The position numbers and the translations under genes are program-made. DNA of 38,418 nt. Origin: Clostridiales bacterium. GTDB taxonomy: Bacteria; Bacillota; Dethiobacteria; Dethiobacterales; Dethiobacteraceae. Every line of letters starts with the position of its first letter. The stretch's first letter is position 1. The notes beneath the pieces are model-generated. The model was not told the DNA's origin and did no database searches. It saw only the letters and a list, made by a program, of their open reading frames with translations. The stretch spans positions 1-38,418 of the forward strand of contig JAGXRM010000031.1 of NCBI GenBank assembly GCA_018335855.1. Direction: 5' to 3'. Shown piece by piece: positions 17,892-33,750 of the stretch.

Positions 17892-17930
17892 AAAATAACG
17901 AGGTCAGGGTTCAATCCTGAGCCTCGTTTT
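17892..17930 (-). terminator. Terminator of the chemoreceptor-like gene
   Basis: On the minus strand CGAGGCTCAGG, loop ATTGAAC and CCTGACCTCG form a stem with one bulged base, followed by TTATTTTTAT. Confidence 0.8.
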
Positions 17931-17942
17931 ATCATCCCGTTA

Positions 17943-18797
17943 TTATGTTAGTTTTATTAAATCATCAGACAGATGTTTTAACATTTTTGAGACATCGGAT
18001 AGCGTTTCCAGTGCTGCCAGCACTTCTTCCGAGGCTGCTGCCTGGTTTTGAGCAATTAAGCCGGATTCCTTAATACCGCCATTAATCGTCCGCATATACT
18101 CAATAATTGCCCGGGTGATGACGTTGATTTTCTTCGTGGACACACTGGTGTTTTCCGCTAGCTTACGGATTTCAGTGGCCACAACGGAAAATCCCTGACC
18201 CGCCTGGCCGACCCGGGCCGCTTCTATGGCGGCGTTTAAACCGATAATATTTGTTTGCTTGGCGATATCTTCAATCAGCTTGAGGATTTCATGGGTTCTT
18301 TCAGCCTCCTGGGTTGCCGTCTCGGATGTATCTGCAAGCGACTCACCGTAACTGGCCAGTTTCTCTGCTTCGCCTGCTAACTGCTCCACACTCATTCGGA
18401 TTTGACCAGCCGATTCATTTAATTGCTCCGTATATTTGGCCAACTGCTCGGCGTTTACATATATTTTTTTAAACATTTCTTCCCGGCTTTCAATAATGGT
18501 TATCAGCAGCTTTGCGGCTACCGCATTCATTACCGCCAGGTTTTCTTTCATATTATCTTTTAAAAGTTGTTTTACTTTCTCTACGCCTGTAACTTCAATC
18601 ACCATTTGTAATTGGACTTCTTTTACCTTTGGCACAAAATCGCTAATTGTCTGAATGCCGAGTTCCCTGGCTTTGAGCATTGCAACCGCCTCGCTTTGCA
18701 CGTCTGCGACCCACAACACTCGTACACTGGGAATAGAAAGAAGTAAGTTCAGTACTGCTAAACCTCCATGGCCTCCGCCAATTATACCAACATTCAT
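17943..18797 (-). CDS. Soluble Rossmann-fold/methyl-accepting chemotaxis signalling fusion protein
   Basis: Residues 1 to about 95 form an NAD(P)-binding-like Rossmann domain, with GIIGGGHGG at 4-12 and an acidic VADVQS at the end of strand 2. Residues about 105-284 are an MCP signalling coiled coil with the hallmark hairpin tip DIAKQTNIIGLNAAIEAARV. There is no membrane segment, HAMP domain or periplasmic sensor, so this is a cytoplasmic receptor. Signalling through CheA/CheW is implied by the tip; sensing of a nucleotide, redox state or bound metabolite by the Rossmann part is inference. The coiled coil is short. AGGAGG precedes ATG 18797. No che genes are near. Confidence 0.88.
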   Translation of the reverse strand: MNVGIIGGGHGGLAVLNLLLSIPSVRVLWVADVQSEAVAMLKARELGIQTISDFVPKVKEVQLQMVIEVTGVEKVKQLLKDNMKENLAVMNAVAAKLLITIIESREEMFKKIYVNAEQLAKYTEQLNESAGQIRMSVEQLAGEAEKLASYGESLADTSETATQEAERTHEILKLIEDIAKQTNIIGLNAAIEAARVGQAGQGFSVVATEIRKLAENTSVSTKKINVITRAIIEYMRTINGGIKESGLIAQNQAAASEEVLAALETLSDVSKMLKHLSDDLIKLT

Positions 18798-18903
18798 AGC
18801 GAAACCTCCTAATTGGACAAAAATCTACCTACTGCTTAATTCTTTTGACAGTTGATTTGTCCTGCAAGTATGTTAATTATTAGAAAAAAAATATTTCTAA
18901 AAT

Positions 18904-18945
18904 TTGATATATATCACATCTGTAAAAATAATCCCATGCTATACT
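18904..18945 (+). promoter_or_regulatory. FNR-type box and -10 element before the ferredoxin-like gene
   Basis: TTGATATATATCAC at 18904-18917 matches the FNR/CRP-family consensus TTGAT-N4-ATCAA at 9 of 10 fixed positions. TATACT at 18940-18945 is a good -10 with no obvious -35. A start site about 7 bases after it (near 18952) puts the box centre at -41.5, the standard position of activators of this family. An oxygen-, NO- or redox-sensing regulator of the Crp/Fnr type is therefore likely to switch the gene on. Confidence 0.65.
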
Positions 18946-18984
18946 TATCGTAACGAAAACTATAACCGGGAGGTTTTAAACATT

Positions 18985-19719
18985 ATGAAAAGACAAATCA
19001 TTCGTATCGATGAAGAAAAATGTAACGGTTGCGGCCAATGTGTCCCTTCTTGTGCCGAAGGTGCCCTGCAGATTGTAAACGGGAAAGCTCGTTTAATCGC
19101 CGATAAACTTTGTGACGGCCTTGGCGCCTGCCTGGGAGATTGTCCTCAGGATGCACTGATTATCGAGGAGCGGGACACAGATGCATTTGATGAAGAAGCT
19201 GTCCACAAGCATCTGGAACAGCAAAAACAAGAAGTGCCCCAGGAACAGTCTTTCGGATGTGGTTGTCCGGGGACCCATGCCCGTACGTTAGCTGCGAAAA
19301 AACAACCGGCTCCGCTGTCTGCGGAAAGTACTCCATCGGAGTTGGGTCAGTGGCCTGTCCAGCTTAAACTGCTGAATCCTGCTGCCCCATATCTGAAAAA
19401 CGCCGACCTATTGGTTGCTGCCGACTGTGTGCCATTTGCCTATCCTGATTTTCACCGAAATATGCTTCGAGGCCGTGCAGTAGCTGTCGGTTGCCCCAAG
19501 CTTGATGACGCCATGGCTTATGTAGATAAACTGGCAGAAATGATTCGGGTAAACGATTTTAAAAGCATCACTGTTGCCCATATGGAAGTTCCCTGTTGCA
19601 GTGGCTTAATCAGTGTGGTTCGTGAAGCACTAAAACGCTCCGGAAAGAATGTTCCCGTGGAAACAGTAAAAATTACTTTAGACGGAACAGCAAATGAAAA
19701 ACAACAACTAACTGCCTAA
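18985..19719 (+). CDS. Ferredoxin-type [4Fe-4S] protein with extended C-terminal domain
   Basis: The 244-residue product begins with a ferredoxin domain: cysteines 13, 16, 19 and 23 form one CxxCxxCxxxC motif; the second motif (C43, C49, C53) lacks the usual second cysteine, as in this family. A charged linker with FGCGCPG follows, then a C-terminal domain with AADCVPFAY, VGCPKLDD and EVPCCSG cysteines. Homologues in Clostridia are annotated 4Fe-4S or ATP-binding proteins and tend to accompany hydroxylamine reductase (Hcp); none is present here. GGGAGG lies before ATG 18985. The FNR-type box upstream suggests induction under anoxic or nitrosative conditions. Confidence 0.8.
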   Translation: MKRQIIRIDEEKCNGCGQCVPSCAEGALQIVNGKARLIADKLCDGLGACLGDCPQDALIIEERDTDAFDEEAVHKHLEQQKQEVPQEQSFGCGCPGTHARTLAAKKQPAPLSAESTPSELGQWPVQLKLLNPAAPYLKNADLLVAADCVPFAYPDFHRNMLRGRAVAVGCPKLDDAMAYVDKLAEMIRVNDFKSITVAHMEVPCCSGLISVVREALKRSGKNVPVETVKITLDGTANEKQQLTA

Positions 19720-20735: not shown

Positions 20736-21803
20736 ATGCAGTCTGTGATAGGACGGTCAAAGGACAGAGCGTTAATCTTTCCCTACATATTCAGAGTGCT
20801 GCCCATGGTAGAAAAAGAATTGAGTGTCTGGCGTAAAGTGGCCGCATCCATTCCTGATGAGGAACTGCAGAGGCAAGCGGTAGCCAGTCTCGATAAGAAA
20901 AGGTTTCATTGTCAGGGCGGGAGTGTCTATGCCCTTTATACCCCTTTGCAGGGTCACCGGATGATTACCTTTATTGTTGCCTTGCAGACAATCAGCGACT
21001 ATCTGGACAATCTTTGCGACCGGGTGAGTAATGCTGATGAGCAATCTTTTGCGGTGCTTCACGGAGCCATGAAATCTGCTGTTGATGCGTCTGTACCCGT
21101 CGATGACTGGTACAAGAATTATCCTTACCGTGAAGATGGAAGCTATCTCGATTTCCTGGTACGGACAAGTCAACGGGTCATCACTTTTTTGCCCGGCTAC
21201 CGGGACGTACGGGAGGATATATTACACCTTGTAACTCTATATAGTGATTTGCAGGTTTTTAAGCATTTGGGTCTCAGTGTGAGGGAAGAAATGCTTATTC
21301 GTTGGTTCAGCCGTCATCAGAGCCTGGCACCGGATATATCCTGGTGGGAATTCGCCGCCGCGGCAGGGTCAACCTTAGGTGTTTTTGCCTTGGCTGCCAT
21401 GGCCGCAGGGGGTAACGTCAGTAACGAAGAAACGGAATTGCTTCTGGACTGCTACTTTCCCTGGCTATGCGGGTTACATATTCTGCTTGACTATTTTATT
21501 GATCTGGATGAAGACAGAGAACATGGCGACCTGAACTTTGTTGCCTACTACCCTTCACCCCAGGCTATGGAAGACGGCTTGGTCCGATTTCTGGATGAAT
21601 CATTAAGCAGGGTGGAGAAGCTACCCCGTCCTGCTTTTCACAGCACAGTGATCAAAGGATTACTTGCTTTATATCTTTCAGACCCAAAAGCCGTGCATCC
21701 GGCGAGAAAAAAAGTGGCACAGCGTTTGCTGCGCCGGGGAGGCGGAGAGACCTTGTGGTTGCATAGGGTTTGTCTGCGTCTCAGACGGCAGGGTGTCATT
21801 TAA
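20736..21803 (+). CDS. ytpB: Tetraprenyl-beta-curcumene synthase-like protein (YtpB/DUF2600)
   Basis: YtpB-type enzymes are large terpene synthases that cyclise C35 prenyl diphosphate to tetraprenyl-beta-curcumene, the precursor of sesquarterpenes in Bacillus, some in spores. The 355-residue product has the family's metal-binding regions: SDYLDNLCDR (D88, D91, D95), and DYFIDLDEDREHGDLNF near 248-264. GGAGGTG lies 7 bases before ATG 20736. The facing gene encodes a long-chain prenyl diphosphate synthase that could supply the C35 substrate. No YtaS/squalene-cyclase-like partner lies in the window, so the end product is unknown. Confidence 0.9.
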   Translation: MQSVIGRSKDRALIFPYIFRVLPMVEKELSVWRKVAASIPDEELQRQAVASLDKKRFHCQGGSVYALYTPLQGHRMITFIVALQTISDYLDNLCDRVSNADEQSFAVLHGAMKSAVDASVPVDDWYKNYPYREDGSYLDFLVRTSQRVITFLPGYRDVREDILHLVTLYSDLQVFKHLGLSVREEMLIRWFSRHQSLAPDISWWEFAAAAGSTLGVFALAAMAAGGNVSNEETELLLDCYFPWLCGLHILLDYFIDLDEDREHGDLNFVAYYPSPQAMEDGLVRFLDESLSRVEKLPRPAFHSTVIKGLLALYLSDPKAVHPARKKVAQRLLRRGGGETLWLHRVCLRLRRQGVI

Positions 21804-21812
21804 CATTCTACG

Positions 21813-22787
21813 TCACCTGCTTCTCTGAGTAATATAATCGGCCAGACGTGAGAGAATTACCCGTTGTGGCTTACTGGGAAGTTTGCCGACATTTTGTTTC
21901 GCCCGGGCAACAGTAGCCCGGGCTTTTCGTCGTATGTCAACCAAAATGCCGCTCACTTCCAGAGCATTTTGAATATATGCCAGGTTTTCTGCGCCAAAGT
22001 CCTGTTGGGTTATGATATCTTGCACCCGTACCCTGTACTGAGGTTGCTCAAGTAATTTAATAACAGGCAGAGTCAGGTATCCCTCTGCCAGGTCGTGAAG
22101 AACCGGTTTCCCCGTTTGGTCGGCTGACCCGCAATAGTCAAGAAGGTCATCGGTGATTTGGAATGCGTATCCTAGCTGGAGCCCAAACGCTGCTAGCAGT
22201 TTCCTCTGCACATGCGGCAGGCCGCAAACTTCTGCCCCTGCCAAGCAACATGCGGAAAGGAAAAAAGCGGTTTTTTTATGGATATAGGACATATAATCGG
22301 CTTCCGTTATACTGCAATCATAACGGCGGGCAAACTGTTCAATCTCTCCTTCGCACATCAGGCTGATGGCCCGCGTCATATTTCCTAATATTCCTGAGTG
22401 ACCGTGCTTCGTTAACAATGAAAATGACCGGGCGAAAAGAAAATCACCGTATAAAACTGCCTGATGTTCTCCCCATTGAGCGGAAACAGTAGGTCGCCCC
22501 CGCCTGCTGGACGCATGGTCAATGACATCATCATGAACAAGGGACGCGGCATGTATTAATTCCACGGCCGTAGCCACATCAATCAGTTCCGATTTTGGTG
22601 CTGGTAAAAATGAGCCGCATAATATTACAAGAGCCGGACGCAGCCGCTTTCCCCCACCGGTAACGGTCGACGAAAAAAGCGGTGTCCATTGGTCGTCACC
22701 GCGGCAAATCTCCCTTAAACGCGCTTCTACCTGCTTCAATTCACCTAGTGACTGTAGTTCGCGCAAAGGCATTTGATAAACTGTCAA
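21813..22787 (-). CDS. hepT: Long-chain polyprenyl (heptaprenyl-type) diphosphate synthase
   Basis: This trans-prenyltransferase joins isopentenyl units into the isoprenoid tail of menaquinone. The 324-residue product has both aspartate-rich motifs, HDDVID (about 85-90) and TDDLLD (about 214-219), with GGGKRLRP at the start of the fold. Chain length cannot be read exactly; the heptaprenyl assignment follows similarity to HepT and the convergent YtpB gene, which needs C35. No HepS-like small subunit is adjacent. TTG 22787 with AGGTGA upstream is the likely start; ATG 22772 is an alternative. Only 9 bases separate its stop from that of ytpB. Confidence 0.85.
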   Translation of the reverse strand: MTVYQMPLRELQSLGELKQVEARLREICRGDDQWTPLFSSTVTGGGKRLRPALVILCGSFLPAPKSELIDVATAVELIHAASLVHDDVIDHASSRRGRPTVSAQWGEHQAVLYGDFLFARSFSLLTKHGHSGILGNMTRAISLMCEGEIEQFARRYDCSITEADYMSYIHKKTAFFLSACCLAGAEVCGLPHVQRKLLAAFGLQLGYAFQITDDLLDYCGSADQTGKPVLHDLAEGYLTLPVIKLLEQPQYRVRVQDIITQQDFGAENLAYIQNALEVSGILVDIRRKARATVARAKQNVGKLPSKPQRVILSRLADYITQRSR

Positions 22788-30333: not shown

Positions 30334-30404
30334 TAAGGTATAGGATATCCCAATGGCTCACCAAAAAGAATGATGAAAGTTGAATGATTGAACGGAGGAT
30401 TTAT

Positions 30405-32801
30405 ATGTCTCAAACAGCACAGGAACCTAAATACATGGGGCGTGTGAATCGCCTGAAGAGCAGAGTGCTTGGAACCAGCCCGGAAATGGATCTTGAGAAT
30501 GCGAGGATTCTTACGGAAGGTTTTCAGGAAGCCGAGGGAGATCCGCTTGTGGTTCGTAAAGCCAAGGCTTTCCGTAAGCAGTGCCAGGAGAAGACTGTCA
30601 CGATATGGGATGACGAACTAATCGTTGGCTGTTCCGGAAGTAAAATGCGGGCAGGGATTTTGTGCGCCGATGCTTGCTGGTCCGTGCTGAACGATGAACT
30701 GGAAACAATCGGTCAACGCCGTTATGATCCGTTTTATCTGCAACCGGATGACCGGAAAATTTTTGAGGAAATCATCCGCCCTTACTGGAAAGGACGTTCA
30801 AACTTTGAAGCGTGGCTTGCCCAGATCCCCGATGACACCCGTGAGCTTCGGGATCATGGCGTGGTATATATCAACCGTAAAGCCGTCCGCGGCTGGGGAG
30901 AAACTACCGCCGGATACGAGTGGCTGATTCGCGAAGGCGTTTTGGGTATCAGCAAAGTGGTGGAAGACAGGAAAGCTAAACTCGATATCACTGTACCGGG
31001 TGATTATGAAAAGGATTACTATCTGAAATCCCTTTTAATTGTGGCCGAAGGAATGGTGACACTGGCGGAGCGCTATGCCATGGAAGCAGATCGTTTGGCG
31101 GCCATCGAAAAAGACCCGCGGAGGAAAAAAGAACTTTTAGAAATCGCTGAAGTTTGTTGTCATGTTCCCGCAAATCCGGCACAGACGTTCCGGGAAGCTT
31201 TGCAGTCCTTTTATTTCTATCAGATTTGCATCTTTATGGAACAGAACGCAGCAAGCTATAATCCAGGACGGATGGATCAGTATCTCTGGCCGTACTATAA
31301 AGCCGACATTGAAGCGGGGCGCATCACCCCTGAAGAAGCACAAGAGCTTCTCGCCTGTCTTTGGGTCAAACTCAGCGAACCATGCCTCTTCCAGGATGCC
31401 GTTACCGCAGAATTCGCAGCCGGTTATCCCATGTTTCAGAACGTTTGTGTGGGCGGAGTGGATGACAGTGGCAGGGACGCTGTCAACGATCTTTCCTACA
31501 TGATCCTTCAGGCAACAATGGATGTGCAACTGTATCAACCCTCTCTGTCGGTTCGCTACAGTCTGGCCAAAAACCCCAATTCATTTTTAAGAAAAGTAGT
31601 GGAACTCATTAGTCTGGGCACAGGATTTCCTGCATTCCACAATGATGATATCGGCATTAGAATGCTGATGAATAAGGGCATTCCACTGAAAGAAGCATTC
31701 AACTGGAACCCATGCGGCTGCGTGGAGACTAACCTGGAAGGACGGTTGCGCCACTACACGGCGCTTGCCGACATTAACCTCGGGAGCATTGTAGAGTTCG
31801 CGCTTTTGGACGGAAAAAACAGAAAGAGCGGTAACTATATATCCGCCCGAACGGGAAACCCGGTTGAATTTGAAACATACGAAGATTTTCTGTCCGCAGT
31901 GAAGAAGCAGATTGAATATGTGACTCGCGCCGTTGTGAAAGGGAGCCATGTCATTGACGAAGTCTGCATGGACCGCCCGTCTCCCGCGTTATCATTTACG
32001 TTTAAGGAGTGTATTGAGAAGGGGAAAGACTACGCCTGGGGCGGAGCGAAATACAACACCGGCAACGGCGTTATTCTGATAGGCGTTGCAGACCTGATCA
32101 ATAGTATCGCCGCCGTGAGGCATATTGTCTTTGAGACAAAACAGGCGACCATGGCGCAATTGCTAGACGCAATGGACTGTGATTTCCAGGGGTACAGGGA
32201 GATTCAAAAACTATGCCTTGACGCACCTAAGTACGGTAATGACGACCCGATGGTCGATGATATCGCAGGAGATATGTTCACCTTTATTGCCGATGAGATT
32301 GAAAAATACAGCAGCAAGTTTGGACGCATGACGCCCGGAATTCTCCCAGTATCCGGCAACACTCCCTTTGGACTTGAAGTTGGCGCTCTCCCATCTGGCC
32401 GCAATGCATGGAAACCACTGGCGGACGGCGTCAGTCCCAGCGGGGGTACAGACTTCAATGGTCCCGGCGCCGTGTTAAAGTCGGTGGCGAATATTCCTCA
32501 TGCCCGCTTCGTCCAGGGGACTTTACTGAATATGAAAGTGGAGCCGGCTATGCTATCCACTGAAAACGGTATCACTCAGATGATGGGCCTGCTGAAGAGC
32601 ATGTGCAGCCTTGGCGTCTATCATGTGCAGTTTAATGTAATAGACCAGGAAAAACTGATTCGTGCGCAAAAAAATCCAGAGGAGCACAAGGGGCTGCTCG
32701 TGCGAGTGGCAGGCTATACCGCCTATTTTGTGGAACTTGGGAAAGATGTGCAGGATGAGATTATTGGACGCACGATACAACACGGCATATCTGTGGGGTG
32801 A
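30405..32801 (+). CDS. Glycyl-radical enzyme (pyruvate formate-lyase superfamily, CxE type), substrate unknown
   Basis: Enzymes of this family carry a stable glycine radical that generates a cysteine thiyl radical for anaerobic C-C, C-N, C-O or C-S bond cleavage. The 798-residue product has the active-site motif NPCGCVET with C439 and E441, and the C-terminal radical loop RVAGYTAYF with G770. The cysteine-x-glutamate pair places it with eliminases and decarboxylases (glycerol dehydratase, choline lyase, isethionate lyase, arylacetate decarboxylase), not with pyruvate formate-lyase (CC). GCVET resembles GCLET of 4-hydroxyphenylacetate decarboxylase, but no small HpdC subunit is present. ATG 30405 follows GGAGG; ATG 30384 lacks a site. 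The activase gene follows after 4 bases. Confidence 0.92.
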   Translation: MSQTAQEPKYMGRVNRLKSRVLGTSPEMDLENARILTEGFQEAEGDPLVVRKAKAFRKQCQEKTVTIWDDELIVGCSGSKMRAGILCADACWSVLNDELETIGQRRYDPFYLQPDDRKIFEEIIRPYWKGRSNFEAWLAQIPDDTRELRDHGVVYINRKAVRGWGETTAGYEWLIREGVLGISKVVEDRKAKLDITVPGDYEKDYYLKSLLIVAEGMVTLAERYAMEADRLAAIEKDPRRKKELLEIAEVCCHVPANPAQTFREALQSFYFYQICIFMEQNAASYNPGRMDQYLWPYYKADIEAGRITPEEAQELLACLWVKLSEPCLFQDAVTAEFAAGYPMFQNVCVGGVDDSGRDAVNDLSYMILQATMDVQLYQPSLSVRYSLAKNPNSFLRKVVELISLGTGFPAFHNDDIGIRMLMNKGIPLKEAFNWNPCGCVETNLEGRLRHYTALADINLGSIVEFALLDGKNRKSGNYISARTGNPVEFETYEDFLSAVKKQIEYVTRAVVKGSHVIDEVCMDRPSPALSFTFKECIEKGKDYAWGGAKYNTGNGVILIGVADLINSIAAVRHIVFETKQATMAQLLDAMDCDFQGYREIQKLCLDAPKYGNDDPMVDDIAGDMFTFIADEIEKYSSKFGRMTPGILPVSGNTPFGLEVGALPSGRNAWKPLADGVSPSGGTDFNGPGAVLKSVANIPHARFVQGTLLNMKVEPAMLSTENGITQMMGLLKSMCSLGVYHVQFNVIDQEKLIRAQKNPEEHKGLLVRVAGYTAYFVELGKDVQDEIIGRTIQHGISVG

Positions 32802-32805
32802 TTTA

Positions 32806-33750
32806 ATGAATCAAGATGCAGCGGTTGGTTCGGTTCTGAGGATTGAACGGGCATCGATTCACGATGGGCAAGGGCTCCGGACAGTGCTCTTCCTCAAGGG
32901 ATGTCCACTTAGATGCCGCTGGTGTTCGACGCCTGAGTCGCAGCGGCCGAATCCTGAGAAAGGCTATGCCATTGACCGCTGCACAGGATGCGGAACTTGC
33001 GTAGGCTCGTGTCCGGAAGGGGCCCTTTCCATGACGGATAATGGCCTGAAAGTACTTACCGACTTCTCAAAATGCAATCATTGCTTTATCTGTGTATCAA
33101 AATGTCTGTTCGGCGCAATTAAAGAATACGGAAGCTTCATGTCCGTACCGGAAGTGGTACAGGAAATCTCCAAAGACGAGATTTTCTTTTTTCACTCCTC
33201 AGGTGGTGTTACCATAAGCGGTGGTGAACCCCTAAGCCAGCCCGATTTTGTATCAGAAGTTCTGCGGGAGTGCAGAGCGCTTGGAATTCACACAGCGATG
33301 GAGACCAGTCTTTTTGCGCCGTTTGGGAGCATCAAAAAAATTCTGCCCTGGCTCAATGTACTCTATGTTGATATTAAACACATGGATGGTAAACTCCATA
33401 AACAATTGGCTGGCGCTGATAACTCACAAATTCTTGAAAATATCCAAAAGATTGATCAGTCCGAATATCCCGTGGAAATCATAGTGCGCATCCCGATGAT
33501 TCCCGGTGCAAACGACTCGGATGCAAATCTGTCCTTAGTAGCAGAGTTCTGCAAATCCTTGAAAAAACTAAAAGAGATAGAACTGTTACCTTATCATCGT
33601 CTTGGCACCGACACCTATAAAAATCTGGCAATGGACTATCCGCTAAAGGATTTGGTCCCGCCGTCACAGGATCGGATTCTGGAACGAGCCAGTTTTCTCT
33701 CGCAGCAAAACCCTTGCTTTCCGGTAAGAGTTGGTGGCGGGTTTGTGTGA
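32806..33750 (+). CDS. Glycyl-radical enzyme activating enzyme (radical SAM)
   Basis: The activase uses S-adenosylmethionine to place the radical on the glycine of the enzyme encoded just upstream. The 314-residue product has the radical SAM cysteines CPLRCRWC (C33, C37, C40), an inserted two-cluster ferredoxin domain (C59, C62, C65, C69 and C90, C93, C96, C100), the GGVTISGGEP SAM-binding strand and the LLPYHRLG C-terminal motif. The ferredoxin insert is typical of activases for CxE-type enzymes and is absent in PFL activase. GGGGTG lies before ATG 32806. The operon ends at the terminator at 33787. Confidence 0.94.
   Translation: MNQDAAVGSVLRIERASIHDGQGLRTVLFLKGCPLRCRWCSTPESQRPNPEKGYAIDRCTGCGTCVGSCPEGALSMTDNGLKVLTDFSKCNHCFICVSKCLFGAIKEYGSFMSVPEVVQEISKDEIFFFHSSGGVTISGGEPLSQPDFVSEVLRECRALGIHTAMETSLFAPFGSIKKILPWLNVLYVDIKHMDGKLHKQLAGADNSQILENIQKIDQSEYPVEIIVRIPMIPGANDSDANLSLVAEFCKSLKKLKEIELLPYHRLGTDTYKNLAMDYPLKDLVPPSQDRILERASFLSQQNPCFPVRVGGGFV

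Follow-up and report, generated by a model that had tools for sequence, protein, structure and literature searches.

Most of what is known about energy taxis concerns flavin and heme receptors, and anaerobes often lack oxygen-linked sensors. The repressor Rex uses a Rossmann domain as a sensor of redox cofactors and drives a winged helix on DNA. In the logic described for Aer and AerC, intracellular redox or energy state is reported to CheA (PMC13401364); their sensor is a PAS domain with bound FAD, and Aer also has a HAMP domain and a membrane anchor. The same source, a 2026 review of aerotaxis, treats PAS-FAD, heme and other receptors, and the terms NADH and Rossmann occur nowhere in its text (PMC13401364). 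YfmS of B. subtilis and HemAT have been described as soluble chemoreceptors (PMC7542364), and cytoplasmic receptor arrays that form without membranes are established (PMC3964821). Among transcriptional regulators, the domains of BkdR were given as PAS/PAC only in a study of B. thuringiensis (PMC4428206), and a survey of Clostridiales sigma-54 activators lists PAS, GAF, ACT, CBS and other regulatory domains, with no Rossmann domain (PMC6615313). Our search of the open-access literature found no report of a Rossmann chemoreceptor and no paper on the pairing of GFO_IDH_MocA with MCPsignal. For some members Pfam's own models would show this architecture, and databases may therefore well display the fusion although nobody has studied it.

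Here we describe a soluble chemoreceptor whose input domain is a Rossmann fold of the NAD type; it is a variant of the known soluble receptors. Like the short soluble Firmicutes receptors YfmS and HemAT, it has neither a membrane part nor a HAMP domain and joins its sensor directly to an MCP hairpin. Its size is presumably similar to that of YfmS. The sensor is a Rossmann domain rather than the globin of HemAT. The function that we propose, reporting of intracellular redox or energy state to CheA, parallels Aer and AerC, but their PAS-FAD sensor is replaced here by a Rossmann domain that carries the signature of NAD(H) binders, and the membrane anchor and HAMP domain of Aer have no counterpart. 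With Rex the protein shares a Rossmann domain, here a putative sensor of a redox cofactor (structural match Z 9.7–10.7 over 86–109 residues), whereas its output is the MCP hairpin and its nearest enzyme-like structural matches are dehydrogenases. BkdR-like activators carry the same N-terminal Rossmann module, but with two PAS domains and an AAA+/HTH output.

The receptor gene and its surroundings

The window, the whole stretch of DNA that was analysed, comprises 38,418 nucleotides from a Clostridiales bacterium (contig JAGXRM010000031.1). The features of the receptor locus are as follows.

17943–18797, minus strand: Rossmann–MCP gene, 284 amino acids, ATG start, apparently monocistronic
18805–18809, minus strand: ribosome-binding site GGAGG, 7 nt 5′ of the ATG, read by eye
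18525–18797, minus strand: Rossmann sensor domain, residues 1–91, five strands (AlphaFold pLDDT 94.6; Foldseek/VIA NAD-Rossmann matches)
18762–18779, minus strand: GxGxxG loop GGGHGG, residues 7–12 (G9 and G12 100%, G7 96% in 57 short MCP members)
18702–18704, minus strand: D32, acidic, at the end of strand 2, putative NAD(H)-type ribose contact (100% of short and long MCP members, 87% of sigma-54 members)
18207–18524, minus strand: helix that leaves the last Rossmann strand and runs on as N-arm of the hairpin, residues 92–197 (continuous helix in AlphaFold models; position of the tip)
18153–18260, minus strand: hairpin tip region, residues 180–215, turn at residue 198 (nearly invariant in the family; PDB receptor alignment)
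17946–18203, minus strand: C-arm of the hairpin, residues 199–284, 12 heptads (86 residues past the tip; 85–88 in 47 of 53 sequences)
18012–18041, minus strand: methylation-like motif AAASEEVLAA, residues 253–262, matching [ASTG]2-x2-[EQ]2-x2-[ASTG]2
17904–17920, minus strand: terminator-like hairpin between the receptor gene and the downstream methyltransferase gene (consensus match only)

The gene appears to be a single-gene unit, flanked by a divergent gene for a 4Fe-4S protein and by the methyltransferase gene. A promoter scan of the coding strand gave no sigma-70-type match just upstream of the gene and one weak match further up. Within the window no che gene adjoins it, as an earlier note on this DNA had observed.

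The divergent 4Fe-4S protein gene (18904–19719) that adjoins the receptor gene is conserved within the family, where seven genomes have it (cluster c1). Elsewhere in the window, positions 20736–22787 hold a terpenoid-type pair, by eye a DUF2600-like synthase and a polyprenyl diphosphate synthase, that is syntenic in several relatives, and positions 30384–33750 hold two overlapping genes that by eye resemble those for a glycyl-radical enzyme (805 aa) and its activating enzyme (362 aa).

A short, soluble MCP hairpin

Pfam MCPsignal (PF00015) covers residues 157–279 with an E-value of 7e-25 and 88.3 bits, against a curated cut-off of 34.6, and the tip, EDIAKQTNIIGLNAAIEAARVGQAGQGFSVVATEIRKLAE, aligns with PDB receptor chains, for example 2ch7, 3ur1 and 4jpb. 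The full-length AlphaFold monomer (pLDDT 83.5, pTM 0.44) has one long helix that runs from residue 92 into the signalling coil. This monomer model shows neither the hairpin turn nor a dimer, and the hairpin is therefore assigned by homology. On reading the sequence no transmembrane stretch is apparent, the longest hydrophobic run being about 10 residues. The earlier note's description of a Rossmann domain fused to an MCP hairpin with a conserved tip and no membrane part is confirmed.

The coiled coil is indeed short, as had been noted, and its 86 residues past the tip are a constant of the family. The methylation-like motif lies at tip+59, and 22 of 53 family sequences have one at a similar position. 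Seven MCPs are encoded in the genome, three short and soluble and four long. The three short receptors extend 84–88 residues past the tip and have a glycine in the motif N[IL][IL]GLNA; the four long ones extend 133–134 residues and have an alanine at that position. This split in length and residue marks the Rossmann–MCP receptor as belonging to a distinct 12+12-heptad class, with a length that is constant over the family. We take this to be the 24-heptad (24H) class, in which the arms before and after the tip have 12 heptads each. The two other short receptors of the genome (276–280 aa, 84–88 residues past the tip) are soluble as well, but their N-terminal domain is unrelated to the Rossmann sensor.

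The sensor domain retains a cofactor signature

In single-sequence searches the N-terminal domain is sub-threshold (Pfam NAD_binding_3, E 0.0014, below the curated cut-off), and its recognition needed a family alignment together with AlphaFold. The model of residues 1–119 (pLDDT 94.6, pTM 0.85) has five strands with their helices, a Rossmann fold that occupies residues 1–91. Compared with the PDB, the family profile of the domain gives weak matches that point to NAD-dependent dehydrogenases. The top matches of the fold search are likewise NAD dehydrogenases (acylating acetaldehyde dehydrogenase, GenD2 with NAD, and inositol dehydrogenases), with Rex ranking after them (Z 10.7, 2.2 Å over 87 residues), although in these rankings Z gaps below 1 are ties and fold likeness by itself says nothing of function. 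A catalytic enzyme of the Gfo/Idh/MocA or homoserine dehydrogenase kind was rejected, there being no second domain and residues 92–282 being helix and MCP hairpin. A Rex repressor was also rejected: the protein begins at Rossmann strand 1 and the N-terminal winged helix is absent.

The sequence GIIGGGHGG occupies residues 4–12. Across 57 short MCP, 7 long MCP and 8 sigma-54 members of the module, G9 and G12 are invariant, G7 is conserved at 96–100% and T70-G71 at 87–100%; D32 is invariant in short and long MCP members and present in 87% of sigma-54 members. Near-invariance thus extends over the glycine loop, D32 and the E68-x-T70-G71 loop, all of them at the edge of the sheet where a cofactor would bind. 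Both elements of the NAD(H)-type Rossmann signature, GxGxxG after strand 1 and an acidic residue ending strand 2, are therefore retained.

These columns bear on the possibility that the domain binds no ligand and is a retired enzyme fragment that dimerizes the receptor or docks it onto a dehydrogenase or other partner. The missing catalytic domain and the weak resemblance to enzyme families (Pfam E 0.0014) would fit such a scaffold. Yet a scaffold would not need the glycine loop, D32 and E68-T70-G71, which are among the most conserved columns across output types, and we consider it improbable. The earlier note had recognized that a domain lacking a ligand site would speak against its sensor reading; these near-invariant residues are a candidate site, and we retain the reading of a ligand-binding sensor.

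The fusion is widespread in the Bacillota

Full-length orthologues with 47–75% identity occur in 18 other genomes among 100 relatives searched, one of them with an in-frame stop. The relatives that carry an orthologue belong to three families of the class, and one further genome has a fragment. Eighteen sequences, including that of the window, align almost gap-free. The 17 other full-length sequences have no gaps inside the domains when aligned, which rules out an assembly or frameshift artefact, and the conservation of full-length homologues excludes chance. A search for the same fusion elsewhere had been proposed in the earlier note, and its presence in 18 relatives disposes of the possibility that it occurs in this genome only.

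The architecture is conserved across many families. With a profile of the Rossmann domain we found the module in at least 112 of 398 sampled Bacillota genomes, a lower bound since at most 11 candidates were scored per genome. Matches in 59 of the 398 lie in an MCP-sized open frame (about 270–370 codons), and the members that were fetched carry the MCP domain. A peptide scan of genome contigs returned mostly ordinary MCPs and one true orthologue. A named example of the fusion is the 260-aa protein of Acetoanaerobium noterae, the one true Rossmann–MCP that the plasmid collection gave, in a chromosome-sized record. That 2.63-Mb record (NZ_CP154629.1, L176) is labelled a plasmid, looks chromosome-sized and carries a tyrosyl-tRNA-synthetase-like gene. 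Long Rossmann–MCPs of about 500 aa (L115, L120, L121 and L123–L127) form one clade, in which about 200 extra residues, assigned to no domain, separate the sensor from the hairpin.

Association with flagellar and chemotaxis genes

Eight relatives have the receptor gene within a flagellar or che cluster (L067, L070, L072, L073, L075, L076, L078 and L079), and the neighbour identities were confirmed for L067 and L075. At L067 it is bordered by flgL, flgK, flgN, fliS and flaG on one side and by cheY-cheA-cheW-mcp-cheR-cheB on the other; at L070, L075, L076 and L078 it lies beside flgK/flgL, in some cases also flgM/flgN. At 20 loci of more distant members the neighbourhoods are not flagellar, and neighbour conservation among distant members reveals no common partner gene. 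In one relative (L065/L001) the receptor gene follows, in the same direction, genes that by eye are homocysteine-biosynthesis-like (HcyBio/NIL) and UPF0280-like.

All 59 genomes with MCP-sized Rossmann forms encode CheA, compared with 328 of 398 (82%) overall (hypergeometric P 4e-6, genome relatedness ignored). In the genome of the window, a long flagellar operon on contig C60 includes cheW, an MCP gene, cheA, cheY, a cheC-like gene and cheD, and contig C38 has a second che cluster. Because the gene lies in the flagellar or che clusters of eight relatives, chemotaxis is the likely output, even though no che gene adjoins it in the window. The MCP tip, these neighbourhoods, the co-occurrence with CheA and the flagellar and che operon of the genome itself support the cytoplasmic chemoreceptor that the earlier note had proposed.

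The receptor might instead feed a separate chemosensory complex that steers gene expression or c-di-GMP rather than swimming. The second che cluster on C38, the separate length class of the three short receptors relative to the four long ones, and the fusion of a related module to HD-GYP could each be read in this way; the position of the relatives' gene beside FlgK/FlgL/FliS and cheY-cheA-cheW-cheR-cheB speaks against it, and we regard a non-flagellar output as very improbable.

The same module heads other outputs

The genome also encodes a 569-aa sigma-54 activator headed by the Rossmann module (L029/L160, G000:C28:7271-8980; L160:5272-6981), which adjoins genes for methylmalonyl-CoA mutase and succinyl-CoA ligase. 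For other module-headed sigma-54 activators (L161, L162, L164–L167, L169 and L172) the neighbours are methylmalonyl-CoA/succinyl-CoA genes, fumarase/malic enzyme genes or bkd genes. BkdR-like activators, which have two PAS domains and a length of about 690 aa, carry the module at their N terminus, and their genes precede those for phosphate butyryltransferase, amino-acid dehydrogenase, butyrate kinase and 2-oxoacid dehydrogenase (ptb-bcd-buk-lpd-bkd). Short PAS-Fis proteins are headed by it too, and a single protein (L122:499-2772, G194) combines it with PAS, GAF and an HD-GYP-type domain, possibly a c-di-GMP phosphodiesterase under the same Rossmann input. In a tree of the module, weak at 116 columns, MCP and sigma-54 forms separate with few exceptions (L133 and L134), which may be separate fusions. 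Since one module heads several outputs, it behaves as a mobile sensory input. That the operons next to it are so diverse favours a general signal, for example the NAD(H) pool.

More broadly, we put forward as a tentative possibility a phylum-wide plug-in sensor of NADH/NAD+ in the Bacillota. It would link the pool of pyridine nucleotides directly to chemotaxis through short and long MCPs, to c-di-GMP turnover, and to catabolic operons through sigma-54 activators, those of the BkdR type among them, with Rex alongside it in transcription.

Proposed ligand and mechanism

An acidic side chain where strand 2 ends classically marks domains that bind NAD(H) rather than NADP(H). As D32 follows strand 2 in this protein, the sequence argues for NAD(H) over NADP(H). 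With good confidence we expect the ligand to be an adenine nucleotide of some sort or a CoA-type compound, and with modest confidence we narrow this to NAD(H). The other half of a dehydrogenase is missing from the domain, which would leave the nicotinamide side open unless a dimer covers it, and this would count against NAD(H).

Because the neighbouring operons share a CoA-ester theme, a CoA-type or adenylate ligand is the main competitor. The same receptor would then bind AMP, ADP or ATP, CoA, acyl-CoA or SAM and read energy charge or a catabolic intermediate instead of NADH/NAD+. Module-bearing sigma-54 relatives adjoin genes for methylmalonyl-CoA mutase, succinyl-CoA ligase, phosphate butyryltransferase and butyrate kinase, all of CoA-ester pathways; moreover, the domain comprises the first five strands only, and Rossmann folds are promiscuous. 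Weighing in the other direction, the top structural matches are NAD(H) dehydrogenases, MCP members invariably have the strand-2 aspartate, which in NAD(H) binders classically contacts the ribose, and the target operons vary among relatives, which a common cofactor fits better than one metabolite. We judge a ligand of this other kind unlikely, though a serious candidate.

Our preferred model, which we hold with only moderate conviction, is a soluble receptor with a Rossmann domain that reads an adenine dinucleotide inside the cell, NAD(H) being the likeliest, and controls CheA. Ligand occupancy or redox state would alter the packing of the helix that leaves the last Rossmann strand. This helix would be the first arm of the 24-heptad MCP hairpin, and the tip would join CheA/CheW and tune the path from CheA through CheY-P to flagellar rotation, such that the cell's own catabolic or redox status would guide its movement, a form of energy taxis. 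The direction of the response and the partnership with the CheA of contig C60 are presumed in this scheme.

Discussion

We know of no earlier receptor that steers by NAD(H), and the chemoreceptor form would be the first if our model is correct. A cytoplasmic receptor that reads NAD(H) would then give anaerobes a direct route to navigate by metabolic balance, and what cells measure in energy taxis would become testable with one soluble domain of 119 residues. Because the same module heads sigma-54 regulators, its ligand, once solved, would also show what is sensed by an overlooked regulator class, the module-headed sigma-54 activators, including those of the BkdR type in bacilli. The occurrence of the same fusion across many Bacillota, with its NAD-type sensor domain, suggests that the bacteria that carry it may steer by reading their own redox cofactor.
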